A DNA stretch of 64,000 nucleotides from Bacteroidaceae bacterium (GTDB taxonomy: Bacteria; Bacteroidota; Bacteroidia; Bacteroidales; Bacteroidaceae). The translations under genes were made by a program, and so were the position numbers. The notes beneath the pieces are model-generated. The model ran no database searches, was not told the origin of the DNA, and was given only the letters and a program-made list of their open reading frames with translations. Shown here one piece after another: positions 1-48,654 of the stretch; the stretch's first letter is position 1; each line of letters starts with the position of its first letter. Where the stretch lies: the NCBI GenBank assembly GCA_017649485.1, contig JAGCGS010000068.1, positions 62,001 through 126,000 on the forward strand, written 5' to 3'.

Positions 1-2
1 AT

Positions 3-95
3 CAGGATCTGACGCTAAAGGCTTTAGGCTTACCTGGACAAGATGTTCTCTGCGTGATGGCTGATGGTACAGAACGATTTGTAGAAATGAAATGA
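3..95 (+). CDS. 3' end of an unidentified gene (cut by window edge)
   Basis: One frame is open from the left edge to a TGA at 93-95 and encodes about 30 C-terminal residues, including GLPGQDVLCVMADG and ending FVEMK. The stop overlaps the ATG of the next gene in an ATGA arrangement, so the two are probably translationally coupled and this gene belongs to the same operon. I do not recognise the fragment. Given the Ubl and E2 genes downstream it could be the tail of an E1-like enzyme or another T6SS component, but nothing visible decides this. Confidence 0.6.
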   Translation, partial: QDLTLKALGLPGQDVLCVMADGTERFVEMK

Positions 96-880
96 ATATT
101 GATAATAACATATCGCATATCAGGGCAGAGGTACTGTTAAATCGCCTTTTTCCAGAGTTTGAACAACAATGGAGGGTGCGTAACTTGGGCTCTTTCTATC
201 GCAACTATACCCAAGATATTTTGTTTCTGGATGAAGAAACAAAAGAATTGGAAATGAGTCGTAACGGCTTATTAAACCTGCTGCCAGAAGGACTTTATAA
301 TAGTCAGGAAGAACTGAAGGGTGAGGATATGCGCGAGAAATTCAAGGAGTTGGAAGAACGCATCAAACTCCTTAGAGAGGCGTTTATGCCGATAGATACC
401 TATTGGTTTAAACAAAGCCTTTTGGTTGAACGACAGGTGTGTGAGTTGTTGGAAGATAAGTTGGACTATGTGTTGCGCACCTATTTTGATTTTGATATGA
501 GCCAAGAGAAAGACCCGTTGGTAAAAGAAGTGGCTGTTATGTTGCCATTCATAAGTTGCAAACGAGGTGACTTTGGTTTCGTGCGACAGTTGTTAGAGAC
601 CTTACTGCATTGTCAGGTGATTATGGATACGTGTAGATATAGTCATACCGACAATACTGTCAGGTGGCTGCCAATGGTGCGATATGATTTGGTGCTGCCT
701 GGGCTATCAGCTGAGGAGTATAAGAAGAAGAATGAGGCATTGGAATCGTTGAGGGAGTTTATTATTGAGTGGTTCATTCCCATGGAAGTGGAGTGTGTTA
801 TATTGGTGAAGGAGTTTGGAGTTCCCCAGCAAACCGACTCACGATTGGTGTTGGACTATAATACAGAGACAAAATATTAG
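92..880 (+). CDS. tssG: TssG-like T6SS baseplate protein
   Basis: A 262-residue soluble protein with no signal peptide, lying directly before TssK-, TssE- and TssF-like genes. TssG is a wedge subunit of the T6SS baseplate and binds TssF, TssE and TssK in the cytoplasm. Visible hallmarks are a short N-terminal helical part (about 1-35), a stretch around residues 40-75 reading as strands followed by RNGLLNLLPEGLY, and a C-terminal part ending in an EWFIPMEVE strand. The start overlaps the preceding stop by four bases, and TssK begins 36 bases downstream. The assignment rests on gene order and weak motif resemblance to the Bacteroidetes (T6SSiii) form, not on a strong signature. Confidence 0.6.
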   Translation: MNIDNNISHIRAEVLLNRLFPEFEQQWRVRNLGSFYRNYTQDILFLDEETKELEMSRNGLLNLLPEGLYNSQEELKGEDMREKFKELEERIKLLREAFMPIDTYWFKQSLLVERQVCELLEDKLDYVLRTYFDFDMSQEKDPLVKEVAVMLPFISCKRGDFGFVRQLLETLLHCQVIMDTCRYSHTDNTVRWLPMVRYDLVLPGLSAEEYKKKNEALESLREFIIEWFIPMEVECVILVKEFGVPQQTDSRLVLDYNTETKY

Positions 881-916: not shown

Positions 917-2119
917 ATGGATATAAATTCAAGAATTAATTGGAAGCCGGGAATGGAGATTACCGCTAAAACTATGCGAGGCATGGCCATTGCAGATGAC
1001 ATGAGGCATCGTATAGCTTTGCGGGCGGCCATTGGTGCAGTACGCATGGGCAGGCTGCCTGATATGCCATTCAATTGCAATGGCGTATTTGTTAAGAACC
1101 ATTTTGAGGCCGACCATTTTAGGTGCATGGCCTTGCTTCCCTCTGGCAGGATAGTAGATGCTGAAGAAGACATCAACGTAGATATTCCGATGCTGTTTGG
1201 TGACCGCTATTACTTGACAGTGGGTATAGTTGATGAGCAACGTGAGTATGAGAGCGAGGGAATTCCCTATGTGACATCTCGCTATAGATACGGTATCCAT
1301 TCTCAAGAAGAGATAGAGCAAGGTGACTTACTGCCTCTGGTGCGCTTCAAGGCTAAAGATGGGTTGCTTAGCATGGAAACCGACTTTATGCCACCGTGTT
1401 TAGTGTTGGACTCAGATGATCGTTTTAGGATTTATGCCGATAAATATACAGCTCACATCGACAGGTTGGCACATCATCCTAACCTTGAAGAAGGAGAAGG
1501 AAAGCGTACCTTGCTACATTATCTGTTCCTTTTGAAAGGCTATGATATGCGTGGCAGTGTGCAAGGTTTTGTAACCTTGATGCATGAGATTGCACAAGCT
1601 ATCGCCTACTATATTTTGTCGAAACATCAAGAGAATCCGGTAGATGTTCCACAAGTCTCTTATGTCGATATCCAACTGTGGTTGCAATGGCTTGATGATT
1701 ATTTCTCGGGAACAGCCACTTTGCTTGATGGAGTAGTGTTGGTTGATAACACCATCGATTATGAGGCATTGCTGGCACAGGCAAAAGCTGAGCTTTATAG
1801 CCGCTTGCATCCTGAATTGATAGAGAAGCTAATAGCTGATATGAGGGAGGAACTGAAGGCAGAAGTGAAGCGTAAGTCAGATGAGATAACCATTTTCATC
1901 AACGAAACACTCAGAAATGAATTGGAGAAGCATTTGACAGATCTTTTGCAGGATAAAGCTCAACAGATGAATAACGAACTGAATGAACATGTTATACAGA
2001 TGAGCGAGGAAATCAGTCAATCGCTGTTTGAGAAGATGTATTTCGAACTGTTTGAGAATCTGTATAATGCATTATATGTGCCTGAACCAGAGGAAGAACC
2101 TTTTGTACCATTGATTTGA
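917..2119 (+). CDS. tssK: TssK-like T6SS baseplate protein
   Basis: A 400-residue cytoplasmic protein. The N-terminus (INWKPGMEIT, about residues 8-17) corresponds to the start of TssK proteins, where W-x2-GM recurs. A MPPCLVL segment near residue 157 matches the conserved 'PP-C-L' strand that ends the N-terminal shell domain. The C-terminal third (about 290-390) is strongly helical and probably coiled coil. TssK links the baseplate to the membrane complex. This cluster has no TssJLM, as in the Bacteroidetes T6SSiii type, so its partner is more likely one of the membrane proteins encoded at 5.2-9.7 kb (inference). The next gene starts seven bases after the stop. Confidence 0.65.
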   Translation: MDINSRINWKPGMEITAKTMRGMAIADDMRHRIALRAAIGAVRMGRLPDMPFNCNGVFVKNHFEADHFRCMALLPSGRIVDAEEDINVDIPMLFGDRYYLTVGIVDEQREYESEGIPYVTSRYRYGIHSQEEIEQGDLLPLVRFKAKDGLLSMETDFMPPCLVLDSDDRFRIYADKYTAHIDRLAHHPNLEEGEGKRTLLHYLFLLKGYDMRGSVQGFVTLMHEIAQAIAYYILSKHQENPVDVPQVSYVDIQLWLQWLDDYFSGTATLLDGVVLVDNTIDYEALLAQAKAELYSRLHPELIEKLIADMREELKAEVKRKSDEITIFINETLRNELEKHLTDLLQDKAQQMNNELNEHVIQMSEEISQSLFEKMYFELFENLYNALYVPEPEEEPFVPLI

Positions 2120-2126: not shown

Positions 2127-2582
2127 ATGACGAACATTGCATTACCTTTGAGAGTAACAAGTTCTGGATTGGCGAAGGAAAGGAGCCTGAAACGGAGCAT
2201 TGATGCATCGATAGACGTGCTGCTGACTACACAGTTGTTCAGCTCGCCTGCCGACCCATTTTATGGCTTCGTGTTCAATAACTTGCGATTCGAGATTTTC
2301 AATGAGCATGAAGGAGTGGTGTATGACAGTAATGATACTGGAAGCGTGTATGGTCTTCCTGGACTGTATGACAAAAAAATTTCTGGTTCATCGAAAAATA
2401 TAAACACATACGCTGCTGAGCTGAAAGAAGCCATTGTCAACAATGAAAAAAGATTGTCCGATGTGACAGCAAGCATGACCTATATGCGGGAGGAGCGTAA
2501 GGTGTATGTGACGGTGAAAGGGAATATCATCTCTACAAATAAGGAATATGTTTATACAAATATATTAAGAATTTGGAATTGA
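2127..2582 (+). CDS. tssE: TssE, gp25-like baseplate wedge protein
   Basis: A 151-residue protein of the GPW/gp25 family. The N-terminal half shows the family pattern: IALPLRVTSSGLAKERSLKRS, then a helix SIDASIDVLLTT and an extended FNNLRFEIFN segment, close to the IRP-aligned core that starts sheath polymerisation. It lies between TssK- and TssF-like genes, seven bases after one and one base before the other, so translation is likely coupled. The 25-60 segment is the most convincing part; the C-terminal half (VYVTVKGNI) fits the closing strands. Confidence 0.68.
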   Translation: MTNIALPLRVTSSGLAKERSLKRSIDASIDVLLTTQLFSSPADPFYGFVFNNLRFEIFNEHEGVVYDSNDTGSVYGLPGLYDKKISGSSKNINTYAAELKEAIVNNEKRLSDVTASMTYMREERKVYVTVKGNIISTNKEYVYTNILRIWN

Positions 2583-2583
2583 C

Positions 2584-4296
2584 ATGAAACAGACTGTGTT
2601 TGAAACCAGACAAAGGGCGGAAGAACTACTGCGTGAGGCACTGAACGTGTGGCGGCAGAGTGACAGAAATGATGCATTAGAAGGGTTGGAGAACGACCCT
2701 GTGATGCGTTTGATGATTACTGCCCTGGCTTATCAGGCTAATGAGGCAGCCAGCGATATGGAGGAAATTAAGCTGGAAGTGCTGCAGGATTTCGCCAATC
2801 TGTTGGTTCCTTATGAGGTGGGACATGCTGTACCTGCTACTGTTGCTGTGCAGTTGGCATTGGAGGATAATGTGCAGGAGATGGAGTTGGACTCTCGTAG
2901 CGAATTCGTTTTGGAAGGATCGGCCCACACTTTCATTCCTTTGCTGGAAACACGTGTGATGAATGCTCGTTTACGTTCTATATCCAGAATGGATGGACGT
3001 CGATGGAAGGTTTCGTTGCATTTCAAGAATTCGGTATCAGACCTGTCGGGTTTGTGTTTCACTATAAAGAATACTTGGTTTCAGGATTTGAAACTGACTT
3101 TAAACGGACAGACATTGCATCTGGTGAAACCTTGGAATTATAGCGATCTGCCACTGAATAGTAACTTTGGGTTGGATGCTATACTTTATAACCGCTCGCA
3201 GACTTATAATGCATCGGCTACATGTATGGATCTTTTCGCTCGCCAGAATACAAGGATGTTCTGTTTGAGTAAGAACGACACAGGTAGGCCAATGTTTCCA
3301 ATTGAAACAGATACTGTAGATTTGATATTCGAGTTCTCTGGTATTAACGACAATTTTGTGTTCGACAAAGATAACTTCATACTCAATACAGCATTGCTGG
3401 TAAATGCCAGAAAGCAGACTGTTACTCTCTCTAAGTCTTCTCCTGTAGCAAGGGTGACAGGAGCTAATGCCGATGAGGTGCAGGCTGGACAGCAGTTCCT
3501 GCACGCTATACGCCCTGCTGAAGAACAGATTTATGCTGATGCATTGATAGAAATACGTCGTGTGGCAGCCGATCGTTTTGACCAAGGTCGCCTGATGGCA
3601 CTGCTCAACTCGTTGTTGGTTAGATACCGTTCTGATTTCATTGCATACCGTAACCTGCCTGAGGGCTTTAACGATAAGACTATACTGACGCTGAATAATA
3701 TACTGACTTCGCTGATAGATGTAGTAAGCAAAGACAAACTGAAAGTATCACCAGGTGTCTATCTGATTCTGCGTCCCATCAAATCGGCTATTCATGAGAA
3801 CTATAGCGTGGATGTGTCATACCTTACCACCAGTGGAGCTGTGGTTAACTCATTACTCAATAGTTCAAGCAAGTTTGTAGCGCCTGTCGGTATTGATGGA
3901 GCGAAAGTCCGTCAAATAGCCGAACCTGTGTTGGGATTCAATGAGATTAGGGAAAAGACTGCTGAAGCAAGCTTGTCTCGTTATTATTTGGCAACACAAG
4001 ACCGTGTAGTGACGCCTGCTGACATCAAGTTCTTCTGTTATAACGAGCTCCTCACGCATTATGGTATCACCCGTGAAATGGTGAATAGCATCAGAGTGAG
4101 TCGCAGGCAGAAACCAGAACTGAGGTCATGTGGTTATGAGATTGTAGTGGAAATTACGCTTACGAACAACTCGTTTGTTATGCGTAGCTTCTTCGACAAG
4201 ATGAAACAGGTGGAGATATTGATACAGAAGATGATAGAAGTTCGCAGTGCCAATATCTATCCTATAACTGTTATATTGAAAGTAGAGAATAATTAA
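2584..4296 (+). CDS. tssF: TssF-like T6SS baseplate protein
   Basis: A 570-residue cytoplasmic protein. Residues 35-90 show the typical TssF opening: a 'DPVMRLMITALAYQANEAAS' helix, then LLVPYEVGHAVPATV, corresponding to the 'DP-E--RLLEAFA-L' and 'L-P-Y--P-PS' motifs of VasA/TssF. TssF is the large wedge protein that builds the baseplate with TssG, TssE and TssK. The length matches the family (about 580-600 residues). It starts one base after tssE and ends four bases before the Ubl gene, which ties the Ubl to the secretion operon. Confidence 0.75.
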   Translation: MKQTVFETRQRAEELLREALNVWRQSDRNDALEGLENDPVMRLMITALAYQANEAASDMEEIKLEVLQDFANLLVPYEVGHAVPATVAVQLALEDNVQEMELDSRSEFVLEGSAHTFIPLLETRVMNARLRSISRMDGRRWKVSLHFKNSVSDLSGLCFTIKNTWFQDLKLTLNGQTLHLVKPWNYSDLPLNSNFGLDAILYNRSQTYNASATCMDLFARQNTRMFCLSKNDTGRPMFPIETDTVDLIFEFSGINDNFVFDKDNFILNTALLVNARKQTVTLSKSSPVARVTGANADEVQAGQQFLHAIRPAEEQIYADALIEIRRVAADRFDQGRLMALLNSLLVRYRSDFIAYRNLPEGFNDKTILTLNNILTSLIDVVSKDKLKVSPGVYLILRPIKSAIHENYSVDVSYLTTSGAVVNSLLNSSSKFVAPVGIDGAKVRQIAEPVLGFNEIREKTAEASLSRYYLATQDRVVTPADIKFFCYNELLTHYGITREMVNSIRVSRRQKPELRSCGYEIVVEITLTNNSFVMRSFFDKMKQVEILIQKMIEVRSANIYPITVILKVENN

Positions 4297-4300: not shown

Positions 4301-4618
4301 ATGGAAGAATACTTTTTGGATATCGCTTATAAGAACAAGACGGTGAGGTTCAGGGTAGTAAATCCTGATGCACCGTTGAGTCAGCTGATGACTAACCTGC
4401 GGCATGCTGTGGGTAGTGACGGTAGATTGATTTTCGACTTCCCCTCTATAGATCAGACAGGTGCACCCTTGGATTATTTCTTTGGTAAAGAAGATCCTAC
4501 GGTAAATGAAGTGAGGGTTTTACGCCCCCGCATAGGTAAGACCGAGAAGAAGTTGAAAGACTATAATGTGAACAATGGGGATAAGCTGTTCCTGATACCA
4601 GACCCATTCCCAGGATAG
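4301..4618 (+). CDS. Ubiquitin-like (YukD-type) beta-grasp protein
   Basis: A 105-residue protein. The pattern is strand (YFLDIAY), strand (KTVRFRV), helix (APLSQLMTNLRHAV), then later strands ending KKLKDYNVNNGDKLFLIPD, which matches a ubiquitin/YukD-like beta-grasp where 'dY-v--GD-l-l' precedes the last strand. The protein ends in PFPG, so it has a single C-terminal glycine exposed without processing; ubiquitin-type conjugation normally needs a terminal glycine, usually GG. The gene lies four bases after tssF and 23 bases before an E2-like gene. I infer that it is the modifier of that E2 or a structural Ubl like EsaB/YukD of type VII secretion. The fold is inferred from pattern only. Confidence 0.62.
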   Translation: MEEYFLDIAYKNKTVRFRVVNPDAPLSQLMTNLRHAVGSDGRLIFDFPSIDQTGAPLDYFFGKEDPTVNEVRVLRPRIGKTEKKLKDYNVNNGDKLFLIPDPFPG

Positions 4619-4641
4619 TTGGGAGTTAGTAATAAGGAATT

Positions 4642-5217
4642 ATGGTCACTGGCAAAAACCGAAGGCTTTATGCAGAATGGCAGCTGATGGAAAAAAGGCT
4701 GGCAGGGAGGCAAGACATAAGCTATGAGGTAACGGAACGCAATGCGGCAGGGATGCCTACAGCTTACTTGGTAAACTACAAGTTAAAGAGCATCTGTGGG
4801 GTGAATGATGTGGATCGCTTGGATGACCCTCGTGTGAGCAACCCTCCGCTGTTTGCCACAGGATTTTGGATGAGCATCCAGTTGCCTGATGGTTATCCGT
4901 CGGTGGATGCACCTCCAGCTTTCCAGTTCCTTACAGAGGATGGACAGGGTAGGCCGATACCGCATCCTTGGCATCCCAACATCCGGTATTTCGGAGCTTT
5001 TGCCGGACGAGTCTGCATCAATATGGCAGACACATATACCGACTTGGTGTGGGGTGTAATGAGAGTGGCCGATTATTTGAGGTACGATATATACCATGCG
5101 GTGCAGGAGCCGCCTTACCCAGAAGATATGAAAGTGGCTGCATGGGTAGTGATGCAGGGTGAGCCAAATGGTTGGATTTATTTTAATCAAGAGATTGAAA
5201 ATGTACGGAATGATTAG
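4642..5217 (+). CDS. E2-like (UBC-fold) conjugating enzyme
   Basis: A 191-residue protein with the ordered landmarks of ubiquitin-conjugating enzymes: N-terminal helix RRLYAEWQLMEKRL (7-20), strands to FWMSIQLP (75-82), DGYPSVDAPP (YP at 85-86, PP at 91-92), PHPWHPNIRYFG with HPN at 111-113, then GRVCIN placing the candidate catalytic cysteine at C125, and a Trp (W137) after it as in E2s. HPN-to-Cys spacing is 12 residues, against about 8 in many eukaryotic E2s. It may carry the thioester of the upstream Ubl. It overlaps the next gene. No E1 is visible in the window. Confidence is high for the fold, moderate for activity. Confidence 0.82.
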   Translation: MVTGKNRRLYAEWQLMEKRLAGRQDISYEVTERNAAGMPTAYLVNYKLKSICGVNDVDRLDDPRVSNPPLFATGFWMSIQLPDGYPSVDAPPAFQFLTEDGQGRPIPHPWHPNIRYFGAFAGRVCINMADTYTDLVWGVMRVADYLRYDIYHAVQEPPYPEDMKVAAWVVMQGEPNGWIYFNQEIENVRND

Positions 5218-6361
5218 AAAAATAGGGTTAATAGGGTGGATGTGCCTGCTGATGCAGGGCATTGCTGCACAGACGGTGAAAACCATCACCGTTAGCCATC
5301 AAACACCTTACACTGACCACCTGACATTGTCGAAAGATGCCAGAGACAAAGATTTAATGGTGAAGTTCATCTTTGACGAAGGAGCCAACACTCTCACTGT
5401 AAGTTTGATTTCCTATCGCTCACTCTTTGTGTTCTGGGATCAGGTGCGTTATAAGCCTGCCGTATGGAATGGAAAGCTGCGTCCCGGACTGTTGCCATAC
5501 GTAACAGAAGGTAACCCTGACACCAAGATCAGGCTCAGCAGGAAATTCAAAAGATCAATACCTTTGCCTCGCAAAAACCATGTATTCAACCGTTGGATAT
5601 ATGTGGACGGCATGCAACCTGTACCTATGCCTTATAAGTTAGTGAATGATATCATCGAGCAGAAGTTTGACATTGTAGGGAAGCGCGAAATGGTAAAGGT
5701 TACCTTAAGAGATGTCTTGCTGATGGATCAAATACCTACGCGACTGGGCAAGCCAGAGAAGTATGAGATATCCTTCTCAACTGATCTCAACCTACAGTAC
5801 CAGGTACTCATCAGCCGAGACCCTTGCTTCGGTATGGACGAGGAAATCGCTGCAGCACAAAATGCTGTTGCCAGTGTGGAGAAAGCATCTGTTGCCATCA
5901 AGAACCGTTTTGGCAATGGTGTGGCTGCCAGCAAAGAACTGCTTGACGTGTTTGAGGAGATGAAGTCGCTCTTTTTACAGCAGTTTGCCCCTCATGAAGG
6001 CACCAGTACTTGCCCGAATGTAAATCAGGCTTGGGAGGAATATAACAAGCATGTCAGCTCCATTGCCTCTTTAGAGTGCAGGTTGGGCGGCATTGATTCC
6101 GATGGTGTTGTTGTTGGCGATGGGGTAAGTGCCCGCCTGTTGTTGGTGAAAGCACGCCAGATTGATGGATATGTGTCTCGGTGGCTGCTTACGAAAGATG
6201 TCATAGAGCGCCGAGATATCATTGCTAAATGCGAGGGTGTGATAGGTGAGGTGAATGAGTTGGTGTCATTACAGGGCATCAAGACTGATGAACAGCGCCG
6301 TGCCTTGAACGTGTTCCGTGAGGCACAGCAGTATTATAAGACAAATTGTGTGATGCCATGA
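5201..6361 (+). CDS. Secreted T6SS-operon protein, family not recognised
   Basis: The open frame begins earlier, but the ATG at 5201 (or 5210) gives a clear signal peptide, MIRKIGLIGWMCLLMQGIAAQ, with likely cleavage after AAQ; earlier starts bury it. The start overlaps the end of the E2 gene by 17 bases. The mature protein of about 360 residues has a beta-rich N-terminal half (residues 25-200, with a basic stretch RKFKRSIPLPRKN) and a helical C-terminal half. It should lie in the periplasm. By position it may stand in for one of the T6SSiii envelope proteins TssO, TssP or TssQ, but I cannot assign which. The stop overlaps the next start (ATGA). Confidence 0.6.
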   Translation: MYGMIRKIGLIGWMCLLMQGIAAQTVKTITVSHQTPYTDHLTLSKDARDKDLMVKFIFDEGANTLTVSLISYRSLFVFWDQVRYKPAVWNGKLRPGLLPYVTEGNPDTKIRLSRKFKRSIPLPRKNHVFNRWIYVDGMQPVPMPYKLVNDIIEQKFDIVGKREMVKVTLRDVLLMDQIPTRLGKPEKYEISFSTDLNLQYQVLISRDPCFGMDEEIAAAQNAVASVEKASVAIKNRFGNGVAASKELLDVFEEMKSLFLQQFAPHEGTSTCPNVNQAWEEYNKHVSSIASLECRLGGIDSDGVVVGDGVSARLLLVKARQIDGYVSRWLLTKDVIERRDIIAKCEGVIGEVNELVSLQGIKTDEQRRALNVFREAQQYYKTNCVMP

Positions 6362-7224
6362 GATTAGCTGCTTGTGTATTGGTGATGTGGTTGTTGTGCC
6401 CATTGGCAAGTTTGGCACAGACTATTGACGCTGATGCGTATATCGCCCCTTATGAGGTGGAAGCACGAGTGTTGCAATTTCAGGAGGAGTTGAATGAGCT
6501 TTATATTAGGAGTAATCAGAGGCTGGATTTTGACTATGATGCCCCTATGTCCGCTGGATTGATGCAGTCAATATCTGAAAGTATTGATTCTATGGAAGAT
6601 TCCTTGCATTCTTTCTCTACGCGTTGGAACACTTATCAGCAGGGGCTGCAGACATATATTGCCACTGATGAAGTGTTGCTTGATAGGGTGTCAGAGGTGC
6701 AGAAGCTGGAGCAGTTAGTTAGTCAGTCGATAGAAGGCCTGCGTCAGCAGTTTAACCAGATGTCAGCTTTCAATAGTGCTGAGGTTTTTGTGTTCGGACA
6801 AGACTCCGCATATTCCAGCCTCTATCGCCAAGCCATGAGCCTGTCGTTATCCTCCAAGCTACAAGCGCAGCTGGAGAAGGTCAAGGCAGCAGAGCAATTG
6901 CTGTTTGCCAATGTGCAGAAGAACTATGATGAAGCCAAGCAGACGGCAGAAAACTTTGTGCAGCTGGAGGGGCGTATGGAGAAGCTTGAAAGCAAGTATG
7001 TCGAGCTGAAGGTGGTATCAGGAAAAATACAGCAAGCGGTCTATAAGCCATTCATCCAGCGTATCAAGGACGAGCTGATGGTAACAGCAGCTGTGGTTGT
7101 TGTGATGATGTTTGCCAATATGTTAATTACTCGTTTGAAGGCAGCAAAGAAAACTGCTGACCAGATGAAGAAAATGAAGAATATGGTGGGAGGAGGAGGC
7201 CAAGAGTACTACCCAACCATCTGA
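6358..7224 (+). CDS. Periplasmic coiled-coil protein with C-terminal membrane anchor
   Basis: The ATG at 6358 overlaps the upstream TGA (ATGA) and starts a signal peptide (MRLAACVLVMWLLCPLASLAQ). A mainly helical periplasmic part follows, with coiled-coil character around residues 60-120 and 165-225. One membrane segment (MVTAAVVVVMMFANMLI, about 235-252) and a short, basic, glycine-rich cytoplasmic tail end the protein. The layout suits a trans-envelope scaffold linking periplasmic parts to the cytoplasmic baseplate. The family is not recognised; an analogue of TssO or TssP of T6SSiii is possible (inference from position). Confidence 0.6.
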   Translation: MRLAACVLVMWLLCPLASLAQTIDADAYIAPYEVEARVLQFQEELNELYIRSNQRLDFDYDAPMSAGLMQSISESIDSMEDSLHSFSTRWNTYQQGLQTYIATDEVLLDRVSEVQKLEQLVSQSIEGLRQQFNQMSAFNSAEVFVFGQDSAYSSLYRQAMSLSLSSKLQAQLEKVKAAEQLLFANVQKNYDEAKQTAENFVQLEGRMEKLESKYVELKVVSGKIQQAVYKPFIQRIKDELMVTAAVVVVMMFANMLITRLKAAKKTADQMKKMKNMVGGGGQEYYPTI

Positions 7225-7244
7225 TTGATAATAGATAATTGACG

Positions 7245-9707
7245 ATGAATATTTTTAGAAGATATATCGGTTACTTTAGCGTTGCCACTTTATTGTTGGT
7301 AACAGGCTTTATGATTGTTGCCTGCCAAGGACAGCAGAATGACGATTTGGAGTCTATGCTCACCAGTCTTAACAGCTCGAATACCAAGAAGCCAGTGGAA
7401 TGTGTAGTTAGCAGTTATGATTTTTCTACTGACTATAAGTTCATGGATCTTACGTTAAAGCTCAACAAAGGATTGGGCGCGTTGGAGCTTTCCGATACAG
7501 CTTCTGTGAAAATGGTTATCCGCCAAAAAGCAGGCCTCACAAGAGGTATCTTGGTGGACGACAATCGTCCTCCTGTTCTTTATAGCATCAAGAATGTGGC
7601 AAAAGAAGAGGTGGCGAAAGATAGTGTAAAGATGCTGATGCTCGTCGATCTCTGCCAGCCTCAGTATTTGGTGGATCTTGAGCGTCAGGCTGTGCAGGAA
7701 GTGCGAACCCTGCTGGATGCCAACCAGCTGTACGTGGCTTTCATGCAGGGAGATAAAGTGTCTGAGACATACGAGGCTACCGACTATATCATCAATAATT
7801 ATTTCCAGAGTCAGTCCGTTCCGTTCATCTATCTTTATCGTTCTTTATTGGAGAAGCTGACGGAGATGGCCGACCCCAACAGTGTGTTTGCCAGAGGTAA
7901 ACATAAGGGCTTGATTGTGTTGTCAAATGGCAAGACATACAATGATGACCGTCCACTCGACCCCCGTCATTTTGAGATTCAGCAGCGTTTGGCTGAGTTG
8001 GCTCCACAGCTTAAGGGTCAAGAAATATGGGTGAGTTTTGCCCAGTTCTCTGATAACGCGGGAACTGCCAGAAATGCCAATGACGCTATGCAGTCAGCTA
8101 CAGCCAGCAATCAGCAGGAATTGGGTATTATGCAACTGTTGTGCACCCAGACACTTGGTGTCTTCCAAAACTCTTTTGACTGGCCAACATTGCGCGATGA
8201 CTTTATGAAAGAGCATGAGATTGACTACGATGATTACCGCATTACGCTGATGATGCCCGACCATAAAGTGTTCCGTGGTAATCGCATGTCACTCGACTTG
8301 GATTTCTTCAACAAGCAGACTGGTGAGCAAATAACCACCTGCCATCATGATTATGCGATAGGCAGTGTATATCATCCCATCATTGTCAGGGGAAAAAGGC
8401 TCAATGAGGTTTTGCTGGAAGGACTTTTGGTGGCGGTATTGCTCTCATTGGCCATCTATCTTACTTTGCAGGTTGTTGCTCCCTGGGTGCGTTACCAGCA
8501 CTTCCTCCGCAAGCATGTGATACGCTATACAGGTGCGCAGATGAGTAAAGATGGTATATTGCTGGACGAGTCGTGCTACCTGTGCAAAGCCCCCTTTGAG
8601 GTGGGAGATGAGGTGGTGACCAAGTGCGAGCATGTCATGCACAAGGAATGTTGGGATGAGAACGACTATCATTGTCCTGAGTATGGCCGTAATTGCGAGC
8701 ATGGCTCACATTATTATAATCAACACAACCTGTTGGATGTGCGCAATGCTACATTCTACATGCAGTGGATCATGGCTGGTGTGTTGGCTGGATTCTTGGC
8801 TTGGACATTCTTTATGCTGCGAATGCACCTCATTGATACCCAGATTATCACCTATATCCTGTTCTCATTCTATGGCATAACGCCTGATACCCCTGAAGCT
8901 GAGAAATTCCTCTTGGACTATTCCGCGCATTTGGATTTCCAACCAGCGTTTGGCTTCAGTATAAGCTTCTTCTCCACGCTGATTCTGTCATACCTTGCCT
9001 TGCGAAATGTCAAGTTCCAGAAGCGAAACACCAGCTCGTTCCTGCGAGCCATCATAGCCGGCCTATGCGGCTTCCTGTTTTTCGCATTCAGCTGTGTGGT
9101 GGCGATATTGTTAGATGTCAAGACCAACTCTATCATCCTTGATAGTGTGCCTTGGATTCTCATGACCACAGTCATCATGTATTGTGTTACCTTGCGCACC
9201 CGCATCCGTGTTCGTCCTCTGTGGCTGCTGATAGCCTGCTTGTTAGATATATTCCTTATGTATGCGTGGCTGCTGTTCTATCAAGACAGCCTGGTGGATT
9301 TCCGCCTGTTCCTGTTGCTCAGCTTCCTGTTCACGGCAGTTGTACTCGCCATCTGTATTGGCTTTGAGGCACCCCAGTCAGAGCACTATTTCCTGCAAAC
9401 AAGTGGAGCTATCAAGCCGTTGGACATTGCTCTCTACAAATGGATGCGTGCCAATCCTTCTGCTGTGGTTACATTGGGACAGTCTGTTGATTGCTCCATC
9501 CATCTGTCTTGGGACATCTCAGGCAATGTTGCCCCCATTCATGCAGAGCTTTACCTCAGGCGAGGCACTGTCTGGCTCAAGGCGTTGGAGAAGGGTGTGC
9601 TGTTCAACAATGAACCAATGGAGGATGGCGAAACAGAACCACTCAGTCATGGAAACAGCTTTACCATCGGCAATACCACATTTACTTATTTGGAGAAAGA
9701 CTTCTAA
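7245..9707 (+). CDS. vWA-like / RING-like / FHA-like polytopic membrane lipoprotein
   Basis: Start taken at the ATG 7245 (a TTG at 7239 is possible). The N-terminus has a lipobox (IVAC). Residues about 125-290 resemble a von Willebrand-A fold (KMLMLVDL, later GLIVLSNG) with a degenerate metal site. A membrane segment lies near 385-410. Residues 444-484 form a RING-H2-like set: C444, C447, C461, H463, H466, C469, C477, C484, with the last pair spaced C-x6-C instead of C-x2-C. Six further hydrophobic segments follow (about 505-715), then an FHA-like domain to the end (TLGQSVDCSIHL, IHAELYL), where the usual phosphothreonine-binding Arg is Gln. With the N-terminus periplasmic, seven membrane passes put both RING and FHA in the cytoplasm with the E2. 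It may combine the roles of the T6SSiii proteins TssR and TssN with an E3-like module. Confidence 0.65.
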   Translation: MNIFRRYIGYFSVATLLLVTGFMIVACQGQQNDDLESMLTSLNSSNTKKPVECVVSSYDFSTDYKFMDLTLKLNKGLGALELSDTASVKMVIRQKAGLTRGILVDDNRPPVLYSIKNVAKEEVAKDSVKMLMLVDLCQPQYLVDLERQAVQEVRTLLDANQLYVAFMQGDKVSETYEATDYIINNYFQSQSVPFIYLYRSLLEKLTEMADPNSVFARGKHKGLIVLSNGKTYNDDRPLDPRHFEIQQRLAELAPQLKGQEIWVSFAQFSDNAGTARNANDAMQSATASNQQELGIMQLLCTQTLGVFQNSFDWPTLRDDFMKEHEIDYDDYRITLMMPDHKVFRGNRMSLDLDFFNKQTGEQITTCHHDYAIGSVYHPIIVRGKRLNEVLLEGLLVAVLLSLAIYLTLQVVAPWVRYQHFLRKHVIRYTGAQMSKDGILLDESCYLCKAPFEVGDEVVTKCEHVMHKECWDENDYHCPEYGRNCEHGSHYYNQHNLLDVRNATFYMQWIMAGVLAGFLAWTFFMLRMHLIDTQIITYILFSFYGITPDTPEAEKFLLDYSAHLDFQPAFGFSISFFSTLILSYLALRNVKFQKRNTSSFLRAIIAGLCGFLFFAFSCVVAILLDVKTNSIILDSVPWILMTTVIMYCVTLRTRIRVRPLWLLIACLLDIFLMYAWLLFYQDSLVDFRLFLLLSFLFTAVVLAICIGFEAPQSEHYFLQTSGAIKPLDIALYKWMRANPSAVVTLGQSVDCSIHLSWDISGNVAPIHAELYLRRGTVWLKALEKGVLFNNEPMEDGETEPLSHGNSFTIGNTTFTYLEKDF

Positions 9708-14173: not shown

Positions 14174-14515
14174 TTATTGTTCTTCTAACTCTTTGATGTA
14201 TTTTTCTATGAGAGGGCTTAATTCATCAAGGTCATTAACGATTGTTTCCCATAGTTTACTTGGAGAAACCTGATAATAACCATGCACCAAGACGTGACGC
14301 ATATCAATCATAACCCTCCAAGGCACTTCCCCATGAGATTCACGGAACTCATTAGTCAATTGGTATGACGCCTCACCTATCATCTCCATTTCTTTAACAA
14401 CGCCATAGAAGAAAATCTTGTCTTTTTGCAAACTTTCAAGAGTGAATCTCGTTCTAAGAGACAGCAATTCTTCCGTGAAGGTTAAAATATTTCTCAAATG
14501 GTCAATGTCACGTAT
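14174..14515 (-). CDS. hepT: HepT-like HEPN toxin of a TA pair
   Basis: About 107-113 residues, all helical. It carries the HEPN ribonuclease motif R-x4-H-x-Y (RHVLVHGY), as in HepT toxins. A TTG at 14497 gives 107 residues. However, the frame continues upstream to an ATA codon at 14515, directly after a TAG, which would give IRDIDHLRNIL, closely resembling the usual MRDI--L--IL start of this family; the true start is therefore uncertain. It overlaps the end of the antitoxin gene by eight bases if the ATA is used. HepT is inactivated by MntA through AMPylation of the Tyr in this motif in characterised pairs. Confidence 0.78.
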   Translation of the reverse strand: MRDIDHLRNILTFTEELLSLRTRFTLESLQKDKIFFYGVVKEMEMIGEASYQLTNEFRESHGEVPWRVMIDMRHVLVHGYYQVSPSKLWETIVNDLDELSPLIEKYIKELEEQ

Positions 14516-14816
14516 CTATTCTCTCATAAATCAATATTTTATCACGTTCTGCATTGTGGGCGGCAAATGGCAGAAGGGTCCCATCTTCCACCAAATCGAC
14601 CTCTTTATGAAGCGTGTCTTTCAGGATGCCATATAAGCGAGCATATCCAAATAAGGTGACATGGTCGTCGAAGATGACGAGGATATCCACGTCACTCTCC
14701 GCTGTCTCTTCTCCTCGCGAATACGATCCAAAAAGCCAAGCTTTCTTTACGGGTTGGTCTTTCAATGATTCCCGTATTCTGGGTATAAGCACATTTTGTG
14801 TATTAGGTGTCACCAT
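14508..14816 (-). CDS. mntA: MntA-like nucleotidyltransferase antitoxin
   Basis: A 102-residue minimal nucleotidyltransferase. The motif LFGSYSRGEETAESDVDILV matches G-S-x10-D-x-D of the MntA/DNA polymerase beta superfamily, with both metal-binding Asp residues present. It lies upstream of and overlaps the HEPN toxin, the standard antitoxin-first order. MntA adds AMP to the HepT active-site tyrosine. The pair sits among palindromic repeats, which suits a mobile or recently acquired locus. Confidence 0.82.
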   Translation of the reverse strand: MVTPNTQNVLIPRIRESLKDQPVKKAWLFGSYSRGEETAESDVDILVIFDDHVTLFGYARLYGILKDTLHKEVDLVEDGTLLPFAAHNAERDKILIYERIDT

Positions 14817-17700: not shown

Positions 17701-18417
17701 TTATTCGGTTTCTCCGAACTTCATGCCTCTGATTACGTCGAAGGTGGGGACGGGCTCTTCATAGACTTCATGGTCTTCAAGGTATTTCTGATAGGCTTCC
17801 TCAATCTCATCAAGCTTGTCATCCTTCAACTTGTCAACCTGCTCGACGGTTTTGTCGTAAAGCTCCTTGAGCCTTGCCTCCGCTTCTTGTATGTCTTTTT
17901 CTGTGGAGAGGAAACTGCCGTTGGTGAGCTGGGCTTTTGTCTGCATGTTCACCACCTTCACCCTCGACATACATTCGTCGTGCAGGCTTTTCACCCCATT
18001 CGTGAGTAGGTCGTAACGATTCTTATCCACCTCAGGCATAGTGAAAATCAAATACTTCACGCCTTTCAGAGACTGGTCGTAAAGCTTATCCGGATTCAGT
18101 TCCTGATCTTCCCCATCGCTGGTGTGAAGCATGAGTGTCTGCTTGAACTCAGGATGAGCATGCAGCACACCCTTGGAGATCTCAACTAAGTACATTTCGT
18201 CGTTCGGATAGATGGCCATGCGGAAATCATCGACTGTCAATACGGAGGCAACCTCCTCGATGTTACATTCATAGAGGTTGGCTTGTATGGTGACAGGCAA
18301 TAGCGAGAATGGGTCGGCCTTCACACACAGATTCTTATAACGAAAGTCGAGTAGGCCATAGTATGCTCCAAACTTGGAACTGGCCGTCTGCACTTCTTTT
18401 AATAATAGGGGATTCAT
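17701..18417 (-). CDS. Unrecognised protein at the end of the VgrG operon
   Basis: A 238-residue soluble protein without signal peptide. Residues 1-140 look like a mixed alpha/beta domain (VTIQANLYEC, FRMAIYPNDEMYLVEIS, VKYLIFTMPEV); residues 150-215 form a highly charged coiled coil (DIQEAEARLKELYDK...). It is the last gene on the - strand after hcp-like, hcp-like, vgrG-like and a beta-helix-like gene, starting 45 bases after the latter. That position suits a T6SS cargo, an adaptor or chaperone loading cargo onto the spike, or an immunity protein. I recognise no family. Confidence 0.6.
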   Translation of the reverse strand: MNPLLLKEVQTASSKFGAYYGLLDFRYKNLCVKADPFSLLPVTIQANLYECNIEEVASVLTVDDFRMAIYPNDEMYLVEISKGVLHAHPEFKQTLMLHTSDGEDQELNPDKLYDQSLKGVKYLIFTMPEVDKNRYDLLTNGVKSLHDECMSRVKVVNMQTKAQLTNGSFLSTEKDIQEAEARLKELYDKTVEQVDKLKDDKLDEIEEAYQKYLEDHEVYEEPVPTFDVIRGMKFGETE

Positions 18418-18462
18418 ATCTCTTAAAAATACTAATAATCAAATCTATAAACCATAATACTA

Positions 18463-20448
18463 CTACGCTGGCGCATCTTCTGCCTTCAGCTTGGCACTCA
18501 GGCTACCGCCAGCTGCTGGAGCAGGAACGGCAATGCCATCGGTGATGTTCTGTGACTTGAATGAGGTTTTTGCCTCCAGGTTGTCGAATGTGCCCTTGGG
18601 AGCAGTGACATCGCCTTTGATTTCGGTCTTGCCATTGATGGTGGTGTCGCCAAACAGCTGCGTCTTGCTGCCACCCACTGAGGCATTGCCACCAGCGAGC
18701 TGCACAAGCGACTTGCCATCGCCCTGCTGTATCTCCAAGGTGTTGTCGGCAAAGGCTCCCACTTCTTCTGACACCACTTGCACTTTCTTGCTCTTGACAT
18801 CCTTTGACTTTGCGCCCACAAACATCTTTTCTGACACCAGTATCACTGTGCTGCCTGCAGCCAGTTTGTCGTCCGTGCGCTTCTCCTTCTCCACATCCAT
18901 CGTCTTGACACTGATGGCCTTGGCGTTCAGGTCGATATTGCCTGTAGCCTTGCCTTCGGTATCGGTGGCAGACAAATCCATCTTCTCGGCACGGATAGCA
19001 AGGGCACCGCCCTGTGTAAGAGCTTTCTCTTTACGCTCGCCATTCTCCAGGTCGTAGTCGATGCTCTCCACAGTGACTGTCTTGGAGCGTACAAGGAGGT
19101 CGCCTTCTGAGGTATAGTTCGCTTTTGTGAGCTTGCCCTGCTCGTCCACCTCCACATTGGCAGAGTTCTCTGTGCTCACCTCCACTGTCTTTGCCCTGAC
19201 GCTGATCTTGCCATCGGCAGTAAGGGCTTTCTCTTGCAACTTCTTCTCTTTCACCTCGTAATCCATGCTTTCTAACGAGATGTTCTTCGACTTGAGGATG
19301 ATGTCGCCCTCTGCCACATACTCGGCAGTGTTCAGTTCGCCAGTATTGTCTTCAAACTCAGCCTTGTCCAAACCTGCTGTAGTTACCTCCACCGTCTTTG
19401 CCTGGATGCTGAGCTTACCATTCTCTTTCAGCTTGCCATCAGTCTCAACAGAACGCAGGAAAATATCGTTGGCAAGAAGACCTATTCCAGAGCCATCATT
19501 GTCGCGCAAGTTACCCTCGCCGTCAGATGAAGCCAAGTTAATCCTCTCACTGACAATGGATACTGATGTGCCAGTACTGTTCTGCTTGAAATCATCACCC
19601 TTCTTGATCTTTCCCTTCTCGTCCTTGAAGCATTTAATCTGGCGGTTCACCTCTGCCAGCAATGAGAGGCTCTGCGTATAGCTTGCCACCAATTCAGAGA
19701 GCGAGAGTGACAGGCTTTCTATTTGATCGTCAATCTCAAACAAATCCTGATAGCCGCTGCGCACCTCCTCGTCATCCTTGGTTATATCTTCTTTCTGCTT
19801 CAGTAAATCCTCCATTTCCTTGACTAATTTACCAAACGAGTCCTTCTGCTCCGAAGCTAACTTCTTCAGATTGCCCTTCTGCGTTTCATACTCTTTGATG
19901 ATTGAATCAAGCCTTTTCTCACGGCTCTCAGCCGTAGCAGTGGCATCAATCACAATACTGTTGTCAGCATGTATGCGCACACCGCACCCATTGGCAGAAA
20001 TTGTGGGAGCGGAGAATGTGCCTTGCGCGTCGTCGCTTTGGATGATGATGTTGCGTGCCTGGCTAACCACCTCTGACACACCGCCAACCACATGCTCCAA
20101 CCCGTCGATGCCTGGGTCTTCGGCAATCTCGCGTATGCTGGATGCGCGAATCTCTATTTGTCCGCCTTCGCCTGATGCCTGCATGCCCACCTTCTGGCCT
20201 CGCATAACAACATAACCTCCGGAAAGCAGCTTGCCCGATTCATCCACATTGCCGATGATCACCTCGGGGGCTGAAAGCACAAGCCTATTGTCATCGCGAA
20301 GATAGTGACCCTTCTTCATCTGATTAATCAACTCCACTTTCATGCCCTGGATCTCGGCCTTACATTGGCGAATTTCCTTCAGGTCTTTCTCCACACTGCT
20401 TTCGAAGTTAGAAAGTGTCTTTTTCCAATCGTCAAATATGTAGTCCAT
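18463..20448 (-). CDS. Beta-helix-like repeat protein beside VgrG
   Basis: A 661-residue protein without signal peptide. It starts with a short helical segment (about 1-40), then a beta-repeat stretch (45-170), a coiled coil (about 170-270), and then long units of about 75 residues that repeat GKLSIQAKTVEVTT / GKISVRAKTVEVST and EGDIILKSKNISLES / EGDLLVRSKTVTVES (about 370-520). The last part (540-640) has further short strands and ends in an Ala/Pro/Gly-rich tail. The repeats resemble the beta-prism and 'DVKISGKNVTI' strands at the tip of the neighbouring VgrG, so a spike extension or tip-bound cargo is likely. I see no PAAR motif and no enzymatic motif. Confidence 0.6.
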   Translation of the reverse strand: MDYIFDDWKKTLSNFESSVEKDLKEIRQCKAEIQGMKVELINQMKKGHYLRDDNRLVLSAPEVIIGNVDESGKLLSGGYVVMRGQKVGMQASGEGGQIEIRASSIREIAEDPGIDGLEHVVGGVSEVVSQARNIIIQSDDAQGTFSAPTISANGCGVRIHADNSIVIDATATAESREKRLDSIIKEYETQKGNLKKLASEQKDSFGKLVKEMEDLLKQKEDITKDDEEVRSGYQDLFEIDDQIESLSLSLSELVASYTQSLSLLAEVNRQIKCFKDEKGKIKKGDDFKQNSTGTSVSIVSERINLASSDGEGNLRDNDGSGIGLLANDIFLRSVETDGKLKENGKLSIQAKTVEVTTAGLDKAEFEDNTGELNTAEYVAEGDIILKSKNISLESMDYEVKEKKLQEKALTADGKISVRAKTVEVSTENSANVEVDEQGKLTKANYTSEGDLLVRSKTVTVESIDYDLENGERKEKALTQGGALAIRAEKMDLSATDTEGKATGNIDLNAKAISVKTMDVEKEKRTDDKLAAGSTVILVSEKMFVGAKSKDVKSKKVQVVSEEVGAFADNTLEIQQGDGKSLVQLAGGNASVGGSKTQLFGDTTINGKTEIKGDVTAPKGTFDNLEAKTSFKSQNITDGIAVPAPAAGGSLSAKLKAEDAPA

Positions 20449-20463
20449 AGTTCTTATGCTTAA

Positions 20464-23400
20464 TTATTTAATACCTTTCATCCTGCATACCAATGCTTCC
20501 CAGTTTCCGTTCACAGCTTCAATCTCTGCCACGAAATTACCATTGTCAAATACTCTCGACTGGCCTTTGGTGTCAGACATCAGGATGTTGCCATATCCTC
20601 GGTCAGCCCACACTTTGCGGTCATGAATCTTGGCAAACTCATCAATCTGCAAATGATCCTTGAAAGGTTCAACAATGCTGTCGTAGAGCTTGCGCAACGC
20701 CAAATTCATAGGCTTTCGCATTCGCTCAACGAAGTGTTTCCAGTGGTATTCGCTTTCTAAAGCGTCCTCCTTTATCTCATCAGGGGTGAAATGAACGTGC
20801 AGGAATTTGCCCTTTGCTGTCGCATCGAGTGGATTCCTGATGAAGTTGGCAACAACATTGCCTGCTCCTTCGCCCAAGCTTTCCAGCTGATACTCATCAC
20901 ATTCGGCTACTTTTGCTATAAATACGGCAGCCAGGGCGCGCCTGAACTTCATGGATGATGCTATAATATCTTCTGTTGTTGTATTCTCATCTATAAGTGA
21001 CTCGAACATCGCGGCTTTGGGTTCTGTGCCATTCATGTATTTCTCATTCCAGGTGTTCAGTCGTTGATCCTTCCTTGAGTCAAAGGCTGCTTTCATCATT
21101 TCCTTCATCTTATCGTCGGCAACGAGGTTAGGCACATTGTCGAAAAGCGTGTTGAAACGATTCATGTGCTTGTGGAAATCATAAACAGTACGGGCGAAGT
21201 TGTTGGCAAGCTCTACCATCTTTGCCTTTTTTTGTGGCAGGGTGTAATGATTTCCATCTGGTCCTATCTGGTCTGCACTTTCTAATTTGTCATTAAAGTA
21301 ATCTTCGTTAAATGGCTCCCTGAAATCTTCATCCACATTTCCTCGCCAAATTGTACTCATGACATCGACATCGAATTCATCCCAATCTTCATCATCTTTC
21401 AAGAAAGTCATTCCAAACTGATCCAACGATCTCCTGCCCTCGGTGGCTGCGTTCCAAAGCGTAATATAGTTGGCAACGAAGCTCTTATATACTGTGTCGA
21501 TCTTGTCGATGCAATTCACCATCTTTGACATGAATATGATTTCTTCCTTTGCCACCAAATTACGTTTCTTGGTGCCGGTATAGCGACTGGCAGGTATCTG
21601 TGCAAAGCTGTCAATGCCAGCCTCAAGCTTCATGTAACGGTTTGACTTGATTTCCATTGTGCCTTCGATGGGGCGGAGCATAACCTCCATAAAGCACCTG
21701 ATGAAGTACATGTCAACAAACATGCTTGCAACTGTGTCGGCAATACCTCCGATGACACCTGAGACAACTCCTGTGACGAAGGCTCCAAATTTTCCGCCAC
21801 CAGTTGGATGGCCAGGCACAGGCTTCTGGATGTTCAGTCCAGATTTGATGGTGATGTTGTTGCCCGCCTCAATCGTGACATTCTTGCCAGATATCTTGAC
21901 ATCACCATTGGGAGCGCTGAGGGTAATGCCTGTGAAGGCATCGATGTTGACATCGCCATAGGGTGAGCGGATATCCACCTTGCGGTCATGCGCATTCATG
22001 GAGATTTCATACAGCCCGTAGCGGTCGCCGATATGGATGCCACCAGTCATGTCTTTCGCAAAATCAAATGTTAGTCCTGCCGCCCCTGCAATGGCGGTGA
22101 GTCCACCCTGTATGCCAGCCATGAGTTTGGTACCATCTTCCGGGTCGTTGAAGACGATGTGGTGCCCATTGGGTGACACAATATAGGTGGATGCTTCAGC
22201 AAGCAGACTGTTTCTGGCACCAATGATGTTATTGCGATACTGGGGAGTCTGCACATTCTTGGAGTAGAGGCTGCCCACAACGTAAGGTCGCTCGATGTTA
22301 TCATTGTCGTAGTTCACAAGCACTTCATCACCCGGACGGAGCTTGAAGAAATAGCCGCCTCCTGTGGTGGCCATCGGTGTGGCTACGCGCACCCAGGGAG
22401 ATGCCAATACGGAAAGCTCGCCGGAAAAGTTCTCCTTAGCTTCTTCTACCTGCTCTTCTTTCTCTTCTTGCGCTTTCTTGTGAGCTTCTAACTGCCTCTT
22501 GTATTTATTCAGGCTTTTCGTATTATTATTGATTTGCTCTTTTATGTCGGCCAACTGCTGGTCATAGTTATCTTCACCTCCTTCGATGGCTGCCAGCTCT
22601 GCCTCCAGCATTTTGAGCTCATTTTTCAAGCGTCCCACTTCTGCCACGTTGGATATCAGCTCATCGTATTCTTCTTTTGAGAGTTCCTTTTGCTGTGCAT
22701 AATTATTGATAACTTCAGCCAACTTGCTGGGGTCTTGGCTGAGGTCAAAATCGTAAGTATTTCCGGGGATGTCAAGCTCCTTGATGCGCAGTTTGTCATT
22801 CTCTATAGCGAATCTCAACTCTTTGAGAATCAACTCTTGTTCTTCCTTGCTGCTGTTTTTGTAATTATTGATGAAGCCACTCTCTTTCTCAAGCATCTTG
22901 CTGATTTTTTGGAGCTCTGCTATGAGGGCCTCAATCCTGGCTATTTCTTCATCCTCATAGGTGAGGTCTTTTACTGATTCTGCCAGCTTAACCCGTGTCT
23001 GCTCAGTTTGTGATTGCCAAGGATAGACTATGCGCACGCGATCCTGGTATTTGGGGTCGTCGCTATCAACCACAAAAGCAGTTTGAGGACCTGATTTCCT
23101 ATAATGAGGTGCCTTGATGAGGGGAGGAACAATCTGCTCTATAGAAGAACTTAAAACCTGAGTCTTATAGGTAGGAATGGCATAAATGACCTGTGACTGG
23201 TTGCTGGAAGAGATGTCTGTCAAATTGTTGGGATTGTCGAACTTCTGATAGTTACGTGTCCACTTCTGATTGGAAAGCAACTTGATTTCAGTCACGATAT
23301 AATTGTCACTCAAACCATCTACCTTGATGGTATCGCCCAAGCCAACAGCAGCATAGTTCGTGCCCATGTCGATGCAGATCATCTTTTGCTGCTGCTCTGC

Positions 23401-24777: not shown

Positions 24778-24783
24778 ATCGGT

Positions 24784-25260
24784 TTATTCTTTTGTAATTT
24801 CTAAAAAATGATAAGAGCCATTGCCCAAGAAGATCATCTTACTTAACAGCATCTTAACGTGGATGAGCAACTGCTCCTCACCGCTTTCGTCTCCGTCCCA
24901 GAACTTCTCTGCAACGTCAGTCACATAGCCATAGGTTATCAGACCATCCTCATAGTCGTGCAAGCGGCCGGTATTTGTAAATCTGGCATTGAAGATAAAC
25001 GAGAAAGGTACATACTTGTTATGTTCCATGCACTGATAGAAGAACTTGCATGCGTAAGGGTTGGATACGATGACAGAAAAGTCCAGATACTCAGAGAGGA
25101 TGCTGCCGTAAGGGTCACCCATCTCATCACGCTCACGATAACAGTGATAGTGGTAATCCTGTACGGTCAGGCAGTTTGACTGTAAGACGCTTCCGCTTAC
25201 TTCTGCCAGGTTGTTGTCAAAGAGGATAGCTTTCAGATAATCGGGATGATTGTTGCTCAT
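24784..25260 (-). CDS. tssD: Hcp-like (TssD) T6SS tube protein
   Basis: A 158-residue protein without signal peptide. The pattern VQDYHYHCYRERDEMGDPYG followed by LSEYLDFSVIVSNP and FSFIFNAR is the family's 'Y----D--GrP-g-v--g-l-l-v' series of strands, and the later YEDGLITYGYVTDVAEKF corresponds to the strand carrying the extended loop. Bacteroidetes Hcp proteins form stacked hexamer rings inside the sheath. Two different Hcp-like proteins in tandem before VgrG suggest that one is a specialised ring, for example the top ring touching the spike, or a cargo receptor. The gene is preceded by another hcp-like gene, with three bases between. Confidence 0.6.
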   Translation of the reverse strand: MSNNHPDYLKAILFDNNLAEVSGSVLQSNCLTVQDYHYHCYRERDEMGDPYGSILSEYLDFSVIVSNPYACKFFYQCMEHNKYVPFSFIFNARFTNTGRLHDYEDGLITYGYVTDVAEKFWDGDESGEEQLLIHVKMLLSKMIFLGNGSYHFLEITKE

Positions 25261-46645: not shown

Positions 46646-46657
46646 ATGATATGTTTA

Positions 46658-46694
46658 CTGCGCTCAATATCTCTATTGGGCGCAGCTTTTTTTT
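46658..46694 (+). terminator. Terminator of array gene 1
   Basis: CTGCGCTCAATA / TATTGGGCGCAG stem, then CTTTTTTTT. Confidence 0.85.
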
Positions 46695-46714
46695 CTCAAA
46701 AAATGCATTTTTAT

Positions 46715-46745: not shown

Positions 46746-46754
46746 CAAGTTAGT

Positions 46755-48630: not shown

Positions 48631-48654
48631 TCGCACTTGTTAAAATAAGTTTTG

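Follow-up and report, generated by a model that had tools for sequence, protein, structure and literature searches.

Predicted E1, E2, Ubl and RING conjugation genes at the end of a type VI secretion gene run in Bacteroidales

Introduction

To our knowledge, most bacterial ubiquitin-like conjugation systems characterized to date are linked to phage defence. Operons of RING, activating enzyme (E1), conjugating enzyme (E2), JAB and YukD-like ubiquitin-like (Ubl) genes were reportedly described by Burroughs, Iyer and Aravind in 2011, with a predicted E1-E2-RING-JAB conjugation pathway, and in type II cyclic-oligonucleotide-based antiphage signalling systems (CBASS) E2 and E1 are fused (Cap2). Here, a stretch of 64,000 nucleotides from a Bacteroidaceae bacterium (GCA_017649485.1, contig JAGCGS010000068.1; C10:62001-126000; genome 82.6% complete), referred to as the window, was analysed, in which genes for a Ubl, an E2, two envelope proteins (Env1 and Env2) and a RING protein form the end of a single long run of type VI secretion system (T6SS) genes, and the first enzyme of the cascade, an E1, is encoded just outside, its gene straddling the window edge.

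The closest described systems were compared. Bil (BilABCD; PMC11354881, PMC12948488) likewise has E1, E2 and Ubl in one operon and has a phage tail part as its target; it differs in its JAB-family deubiquitinase (DUB) and ISG15-like Ubl, where the window has a membrane RING protein and T6SS genes. No JAB/JAMM protease was found in the window, in loci of its subtype or in its own genome at the stated completeness, and the locus was not assigned to Bil. The Caldiarchaeum subterraneum Ub/E1/E2/RING(srfp)/DUB operon (PMC5654768, PMC11354881) also joins Ubl, E1, E2 and a C3H2C3 RING, but it is archaeal, contains a DUB and as described has no secretion machine, whereas the RING of the window belongs to a large membrane protein. 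Bacterial E1/E2/JAB/Ubl operons are described in PMC1779556, where one group, including Bacteroides thetaiotaomicron, has an E2-like protein lacking the classical histidine, unlike the E2 of the window. The Bacteroidota T6SSiii with its TssNQOPR membrane complex shares TssC, TssD (Hcp), VgrG and baseplate genes with the locus; there, a cytoplasmic ubiquitin-like domain of TssN recruits and docks TssK, tssN is nearly ubiquitous, and tssR is absent or unidentified in 31% (PMC10781749), while here the Ubl stands alone as a protein, accompanied by an E1, E2 and RING of its own, and no TssN or TssR match was obtained. In the open-licence literature, covered by titles, abstract starts and passages (PMC3482391, PMC10781749, PMC12948488), no link between a T6SS or contractile injection system and a ubiquitin-like cascade was found.

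Gene order and its conservation

The 20 kb upstream of the window carry, on the same strand, T6SS genes and then the E1 gene, which runs into the window and overlaps the first bases of the TssG-like gene from base 92; for this reason the cascade genes were taken as the end of one T6SS run whose first enzyme lies outside the window. The T6SS genes comprise a ClpV-like ATPase, a TssB-like protein named by its place, a TssC of the Bacteroidota type (PF17541, E 2.5e-99), three Hcp-type (TssD) proteins, of which the two that were Pfam-scanned both matched PF17642 (E 3.8e-28 given) and are thus of the Bacteroidota type, a VgrG-like hub, a spike protein, a PAAR-like DUF4280 protein, a PEGA protein and a small protein with a weak match to ribosome recycling factor (RRF). 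Within the window (Table 1), gene positions and spacing from the end of the TssF-like gene to the RING gene agreed with the original prediction, which had been made from the window alone and had described Ubl-, E2- and RING-like genes behind four baseplate-type genes. The Ubl, E2 and RING-like genes are real, and the E1 gene had been missed. Among the four preceding genes the assignment is solid for TssE, weaker for TssK and TssF, and by place only for TssG; three standard Bacteroidaceae T6SS loci contain, close to TssN, an open reading frame (ORF) matched by the TssF profile (E 8e-15 to 2e-18).

Relatives were collected by a contig scan with an E2 profile (131 stretches, of which 120 encode a relative and 80 were kept; counts of 81 are these 80 plus the window locus). 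The homologue sets A1 and A2 held 24 of 120 listed (680 found) and 22 of 120 listed (192 found), respectively, and L092 and L093 (L and G numbers denote loci and genomes) were taken as duplicates of L060 and L057 and not recounted. The survey of gene order proposed with the original prediction gave a uniform picture: the order E1-TssG-TssK-TssE-TssF-Ubl-E2-Env1-RING was kept in 80 loci wherever the contig was long enough, with the PEGA and RRF-like genes varying in place. Ubl, E2, TssE and TssF were present in all 81 loci, Env1 in 80, E1 and RING in 77 each and Env2 in 74. Each absence of E1 or RING coincided with a contig end (E1 would need about 5.7 kb upstream of E2, and the four loci lacking it reach only 2.6-4.4 kb; those lacking RING, also four, end within 0.9 kb past E2), and Env2 was undetected by similarity in L007, L021 and L031, though these are long enough for it. 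Hosts were Prevotella, Xylanibacter ruminicola, Bacteroides mediterraneensis, Caecibacteroides, Mediterranea, Parabacteroides, Alistipes, Millionella, Paludibacteraceae and uncultured Bacteroidales. Matches were found in 5 of 295 genomes across the order (including the window's own and one unconfirmed) and 3 of 392 across the phylum (including its own), so the system is uncommon. An E2 match in G036 (L088), at a contig edge and covering 83 positions with no alignment at the HPN motif, was left unconfirmed.

This arrangement bears on a defence role, in which the cascade would, like Bil, tag the tails of incoming phages, and its presence in a T6SS operon would be accidental or reflect a shared envelope defence. 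Contractile injection machines are similar to phage tails, and Bil places its Ubl on the phage central tail fibre (PMC12948488). Against this, the cascade genes keep one position between baseplate genes in the 80 loci unless truncated, their pairwise distances track those of TssF and TssK (r 0.71-0.85), and PADLOC models match the E1 core only; defence was accordingly judged very improbable. Type II CBASS was rejected, E1 and E2 being separate and 4.5 kb apart with T6SS genes between and the PADLOC E1-E2 models again matching the E1 core only; CD-NTase was not searched.

Modifier, conjugating enzyme and activating enzyme

The free C-terminal Gly of the Ubl noted earlier is terminal and invariant (81/81, the window and 80 loci), and its beta-grasp fold was borne out by an AlphaFold model and structural comparison, in which the last residue aligns with ubiquitin Gly76. 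Among ten genes compared across 72 loci it changed most slowly (mean p-distance 0.21 versus 0.40-0.62), as expected for a modifier. In L098 a second Ubl-like ORF is present that does not end in Gly.

For the E2, residues H111, P112, N113 and C125 were invariant in 81/81 sequences, and an AlphaFold2 model (predicted local distance difference test 90.7) together with structural comparison indicated a UBC fold closest to UBE2K; absence of the fold or of these residues from homologues had been named in advance as grounds for discarding the prediction. The modelled protein thus combines a UBC fold, HPN and a predicted catalytic Cys. Matches by sequence were faint: Pfam UQ_con was below its curated cut-off (E 6.3e-4), PF00179 had no match in the window's own genome and likewise none in control genomes, and single E2 and RING sequences found nothing in the PDB, where profiles of the two gave weak matches at E 0.047 and 0.04, respectively.

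The E1, which is eukaryote-like, matched Pfam ThiF with E 1.6e-48 and, in phmmer against the PDB, SUMO-activating enzyme subunit 2 (E 4.2e-20), then MccB, MoeB and ubiquitin E1. C173, C154 and C157 were each kept in 76 of 77 rows and C247 and H250 in 77 of 77, and all are kept in diverged loci (below). By position and by analogy with UBA2, C173 was presumed to be catalytic and C154, C157, C247 and H250 to form a zinc site; with its ThiF match, the protein has an adenylation domain and a putative catalytic Cys.

The position of this enzyme directly upstream moves the odds from a scaffold toward real conjugation. As a scaffold, the Ubl, the UBC fold and the RING would serve as structural components of the membrane complex, comparable to the ubiquitin-like domains found in EccD and TssN, and would not conjugate. 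The ranking of the Ubl model is in keeping with this, talin F0 and EccD5 domains (Z 10.4-10.7) standing above ubiquitin (near 9.3). On the scaffold account, however, the conserved putative catalytic and zinc residues of E1, the invariant E2 Cys, the Gly end in 81/81 and the JAMM proteases of relatives would be purposeless, and it was considered improbable.

RING and envelope proteins

The RING-H2-like Cys/His set of the original prediction comprises C444, C447, C461, H463, H466, C469, C477 and C484, all invariant in 77/77, so that a RING is predicted by ligand pattern; zf-RING_2 matched below cut-off (E 9.8e-4). By plain hydropathy the protein would consist of a signal with lipobox (C27 in 76/77), one transmembrane (TM) segment (394-412), the RING, six hydrophobic segments and the FHA domain, and the RING, together with the FHA, is predicted to face the cytoplasm, as had been proposed. 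PF00498 (FHA) is precomputed for many relatives, and in one of them (L108) both vWA and FHA exceed Pfam cut-offs. A long spacing between the last two RING ligands, described as a prokaryotic-RING trait in a review (PMC11354881), is also present in the window protein. Both proteins encoded after E2 are, as anticipated, probably of the envelope: Env1 is predicted to be secreted, and Env2 to have a signal sequence and a C-terminal TM segment.

A T6SS type apparently lacking TssN and TssR

In 199 genomes of the window's family, E2 was detected in 9, TssC in 28, TssN over cut-off in 15 and TssR in 17; five genomes with TssN rows below cut-off (G295, G361, G447, G462, G464) were left uncounted. All 9 E2 genomes had TssC, and 8 of the 9 lacked both TssR and TssN over cut-off, the ninth (G437) having a second, TssN-type T6SS elsewhere; the weak TssN match of G447 is on another contig. 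TssN and TssR were accordingly found neither in the window's own genome nor, over cut-off, in 7 further E2-positive ones, TssO, P and Q not having been profile-searched. TssR was present in 15/15 TssN genomes, and also in G411 and G444, which have neither TssN nor TssC. By profile search the cascade loci thus appear to represent a T6SS type that lacks both proteins.

Five TssC genomes had neither E2 nor TssN. Three of their loci were read whole (L100-L102 from G222, G424 and G408), that of G363 (L103) was covered over 4.8 kb only and that of G321 lies at a contig edge. In L100-L102 no E1, E2, Ubl or RING was matched, and each contains two Ser/Thr kinases (3/3; Pfam verified Pkinase and FHA in L100, and the rest were recognized by their similarity to these). 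Homologues of these kinases were not found in the window-subtype and diverged loci scanned, with flanks up to 10 kb and L108-L114 outside the scan. Kinases in the sister type and none found in the cascade loci scanned make a post-translational switch at this place plausible. L100 further encodes an FHA-like protein, and one of its genes resembles, by reading, a sigma-54 activator.

Diverged modules and JAMM proteases

More distant relatives retain all four cascade proteins, with E2s 32-53% identical to that of the window in the eight aligned. Six loci of the window's family (L094-L099; E2 E 6e-43 to 7e-46) and L085 and L086 carry the four genes within T6SS loci in the order Ubl-E2-...-RING-E1-TssG, mostly after VgrG and PAAR. 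A JAMM or JAB-profile protein is encoded beside the RING gene in 11/11 diverged loci (these eight, L087, L108 and L110); in the Pfam JAB scan, which covered L087, L095, L108 and one G013 protein in L112 only, the family was over cut-off in L087 and L108 and below it in L095. A short tail after the Ubl Gly occurs in L087 and L110 only, which could fit trimming by the JAMM protease, the cases being too few for a statistic. The Ubl of L087 was located by place and not by the first profile; it and that of L108 match YukD and ubiquitin below cut-off.

Two diverged modules adjoin a PAAR gene, and one is near a contractile injection operon. The G552 module (L108) faces genes for PAAR and eCIS_core; about 20 kb away lie genes for the sheath, tube, hub and gp25 components of a contractile injection system (L114). 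In G646 structural genes of an extracellular contractile injection system were not found in the 20 kb upstream, where only PAAR and a neighbouring nSTAND-type NTPase gene are shared. As side observations, L108 has an nSTAND1 NTPase gene just before E1 and its eCIS_core protein has a weak lipase match, and G013 (L087, L112) has an extra JAB gene and a protein starting with two Ubl-like repeats.

The PAAR neighbourhood bears on the alternative that the Ubl is ligated to a VgrG/PAAR-linked effector or to Hcp, and not to the baseplate, so as to load cargo, hold it back or time its export. In L085 and L094-L099 the Ubl gene follows PAAR, the L108 module adjoins PAAR and the cargo-type eCIS_core gene, and in the window's own run Hcp, VgrG, spike and PAAR-like genes stand just upstream of E1. 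In the window subtype, by contrast, Ubl, E2 and E1 lie among baseplate genes in fixed order, and the Ubl varies little where a cargo would be expected to vary; cargo tagging was rated unlikely.

Other features of the window

Table 1. Features of the cascade locus (window coordinates; aa, amino acids)
Feature	Position	Strand	Remarks
E1-like (ThiF/UBA2-type) activating enzyme, 3' end	1..95	+	gene starts 1036 bases before window; C10:60965-62095, 376 aa
TssG-like gene	92..880	+	place and size only; no family over cut-off; follows E1 where locus has both
TssK-like baseplate protein	917..2119	+	TIGR03353 E 4.9e-4, below cut-off
TssE baseplate wedge (gp25 family)	2127..2582	+	PF04965 E 2.7e-8, over cut-off
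TssF-like baseplate protein	2584..4296	+	own profile matches ORF near TssN; no Pfam match
Ubl, ubiquitin-like modifier, 105 aa	4301..4618	+	
Ubl C-terminal Gly105	4613..4615	+	final residue in 81/81
E2 (UBC-fold) conjugating enzyme, 191 aa	4642..5217	+	
E2 HPN motif, residues 111-113	4972..4980	+	kept in 81/81
E2 Cys125, predicted catalytic	5014..5016	+	kept in 81/81; segment aligns with UBE2K
Env1, predicted secreted, 382 aa	5213..6361	+	no known family
Env2	about 6358..7224	+	signal sequence, helical region, C-terminal TM, short tail; no known family
RING protein, 820 aa	7245..9707	+	lipobox, vWA-like domain, TM, RING-H2, six hydrophobic segments, FHA
RING-H2 zinc ligands C444 to C484 (C3H2C3)	8574..8696	+	77/77; profile match RNF24 E 0.04
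FHA domain of RING protein	9468..9674	+	TagH FHA model TIGR03354 E 4.2e-4, residues 742-810, below cut-off

Apart from the main operon, a second VgrG-type cluster (hub, spike-like protein and partner) was recognized by reading on the minus strand at 17701-25260. Two similar small T6SS-linked proteins are encoded at L001:18236-18940 and window 17701-18417, the first weakly RRF-like (Pfam RRF 1.3e-5, below cut-off). By the look of the translations, an MNT/HEPN-type toxin-antitoxin pair lies at 14174-14816 (minus strand), and similar lipoprotein-like genes, fimbrillin-like by appearance, form a tandem array at 44876-58344.

Discussion

The genes, their order and the conserved catalytic and zinc residues were observed directly, and the folds of Ubl and E2 were modelled; the activity of the cascade and the target of the Ubl are predictions from sequence. 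On balance it is probable that E1, Ubl, E2 and RING form a working cascade that likely ligates the Ubl onto a T6SS component as a switch for assembly or firing; that E1, E2, Ubl, RING and baseplate genes share one same-strand run in 80 loci was counted in its favour. E1 would adenylate Gly105 of the Ubl and carry it on Cys173, from which Cys125 of E2 would take it over. The RING protein, with its vWA domain in the periplasm and its FHA domain in the cytoplasm, would recruit the charged E2 to the docking site of the baseplate at the inner membrane, and the Ubl would be transferred to a lysine of the baseplate or membrane complex, which would make docking conditional on an envelope signal. Because no TssN was found for this type, the covalently added Ubl may supply the dock that TssN gives in the standard Bacteroidota T6SS. 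The least secure step is the target; the baseplate is favoured because its genes are flanked by those of the cascade, the RING is predicted to be located at the docking membrane, and standard TssK docks on the ubiquitin-like domain of TssN.

Several results weigh against a working cascade of this kind. Besides the ranking of the Ubl model below talin F0 and EccD5, Foldseek returned no match for the Ubl at E 0.001 or better; the Ubl had no convincing profile similarity to the cytoplasmic domain of TssN (hhalign probability 3.6), and profile-profile comparison of the RING protein with TssN gave nothing usable. A profile of E1 residues 260-376 yielded no C-terminal ubiquitin-fold domain (UFD) among PDB sequences. 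The absence of JAMM from the window subtype leaves reversal unexplained, Prok-JAB giving 0 matches in the window's own genome with a control matched in 8 of 14 genomes. The RING of L108 and L110 no longer has its first Cys pair or its central His/His/Cys ligands, so zinc is not essential there; the segment contains DPIT, which may be reminiscent of a U-box. Finally, the G013 module adjoins SrfB/Virul_Fac genes, and no T6SS match was obtained in the stretch read.

A wider proposal, held as tentative and rather doubtful, is that certain contractile injection machines of the Bacteroidota form a class under the control of a dedicated ubiquitin-like cascade, in which a transmembrane vWA-RING-FHA ligase would sense the envelope and attach the Ubl to the machine, replacing in trans the fixed ubiquitin-like dock of TssN, with a JAMM eraser in some lineages.

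E1, Ubl, E2 and RING are a fixed part of a T6SS in gut and rumen Bacteroidales. The locus points to a T6SS type lacking TssN, which in the main T6SSiii study is nearly ubiquitous (PMC10781749). The cascade would be a ubiquitin-type switch on a bacterial nanomachine, and the role of bacterial RING proteins becomes directly testable in cultured commensals.

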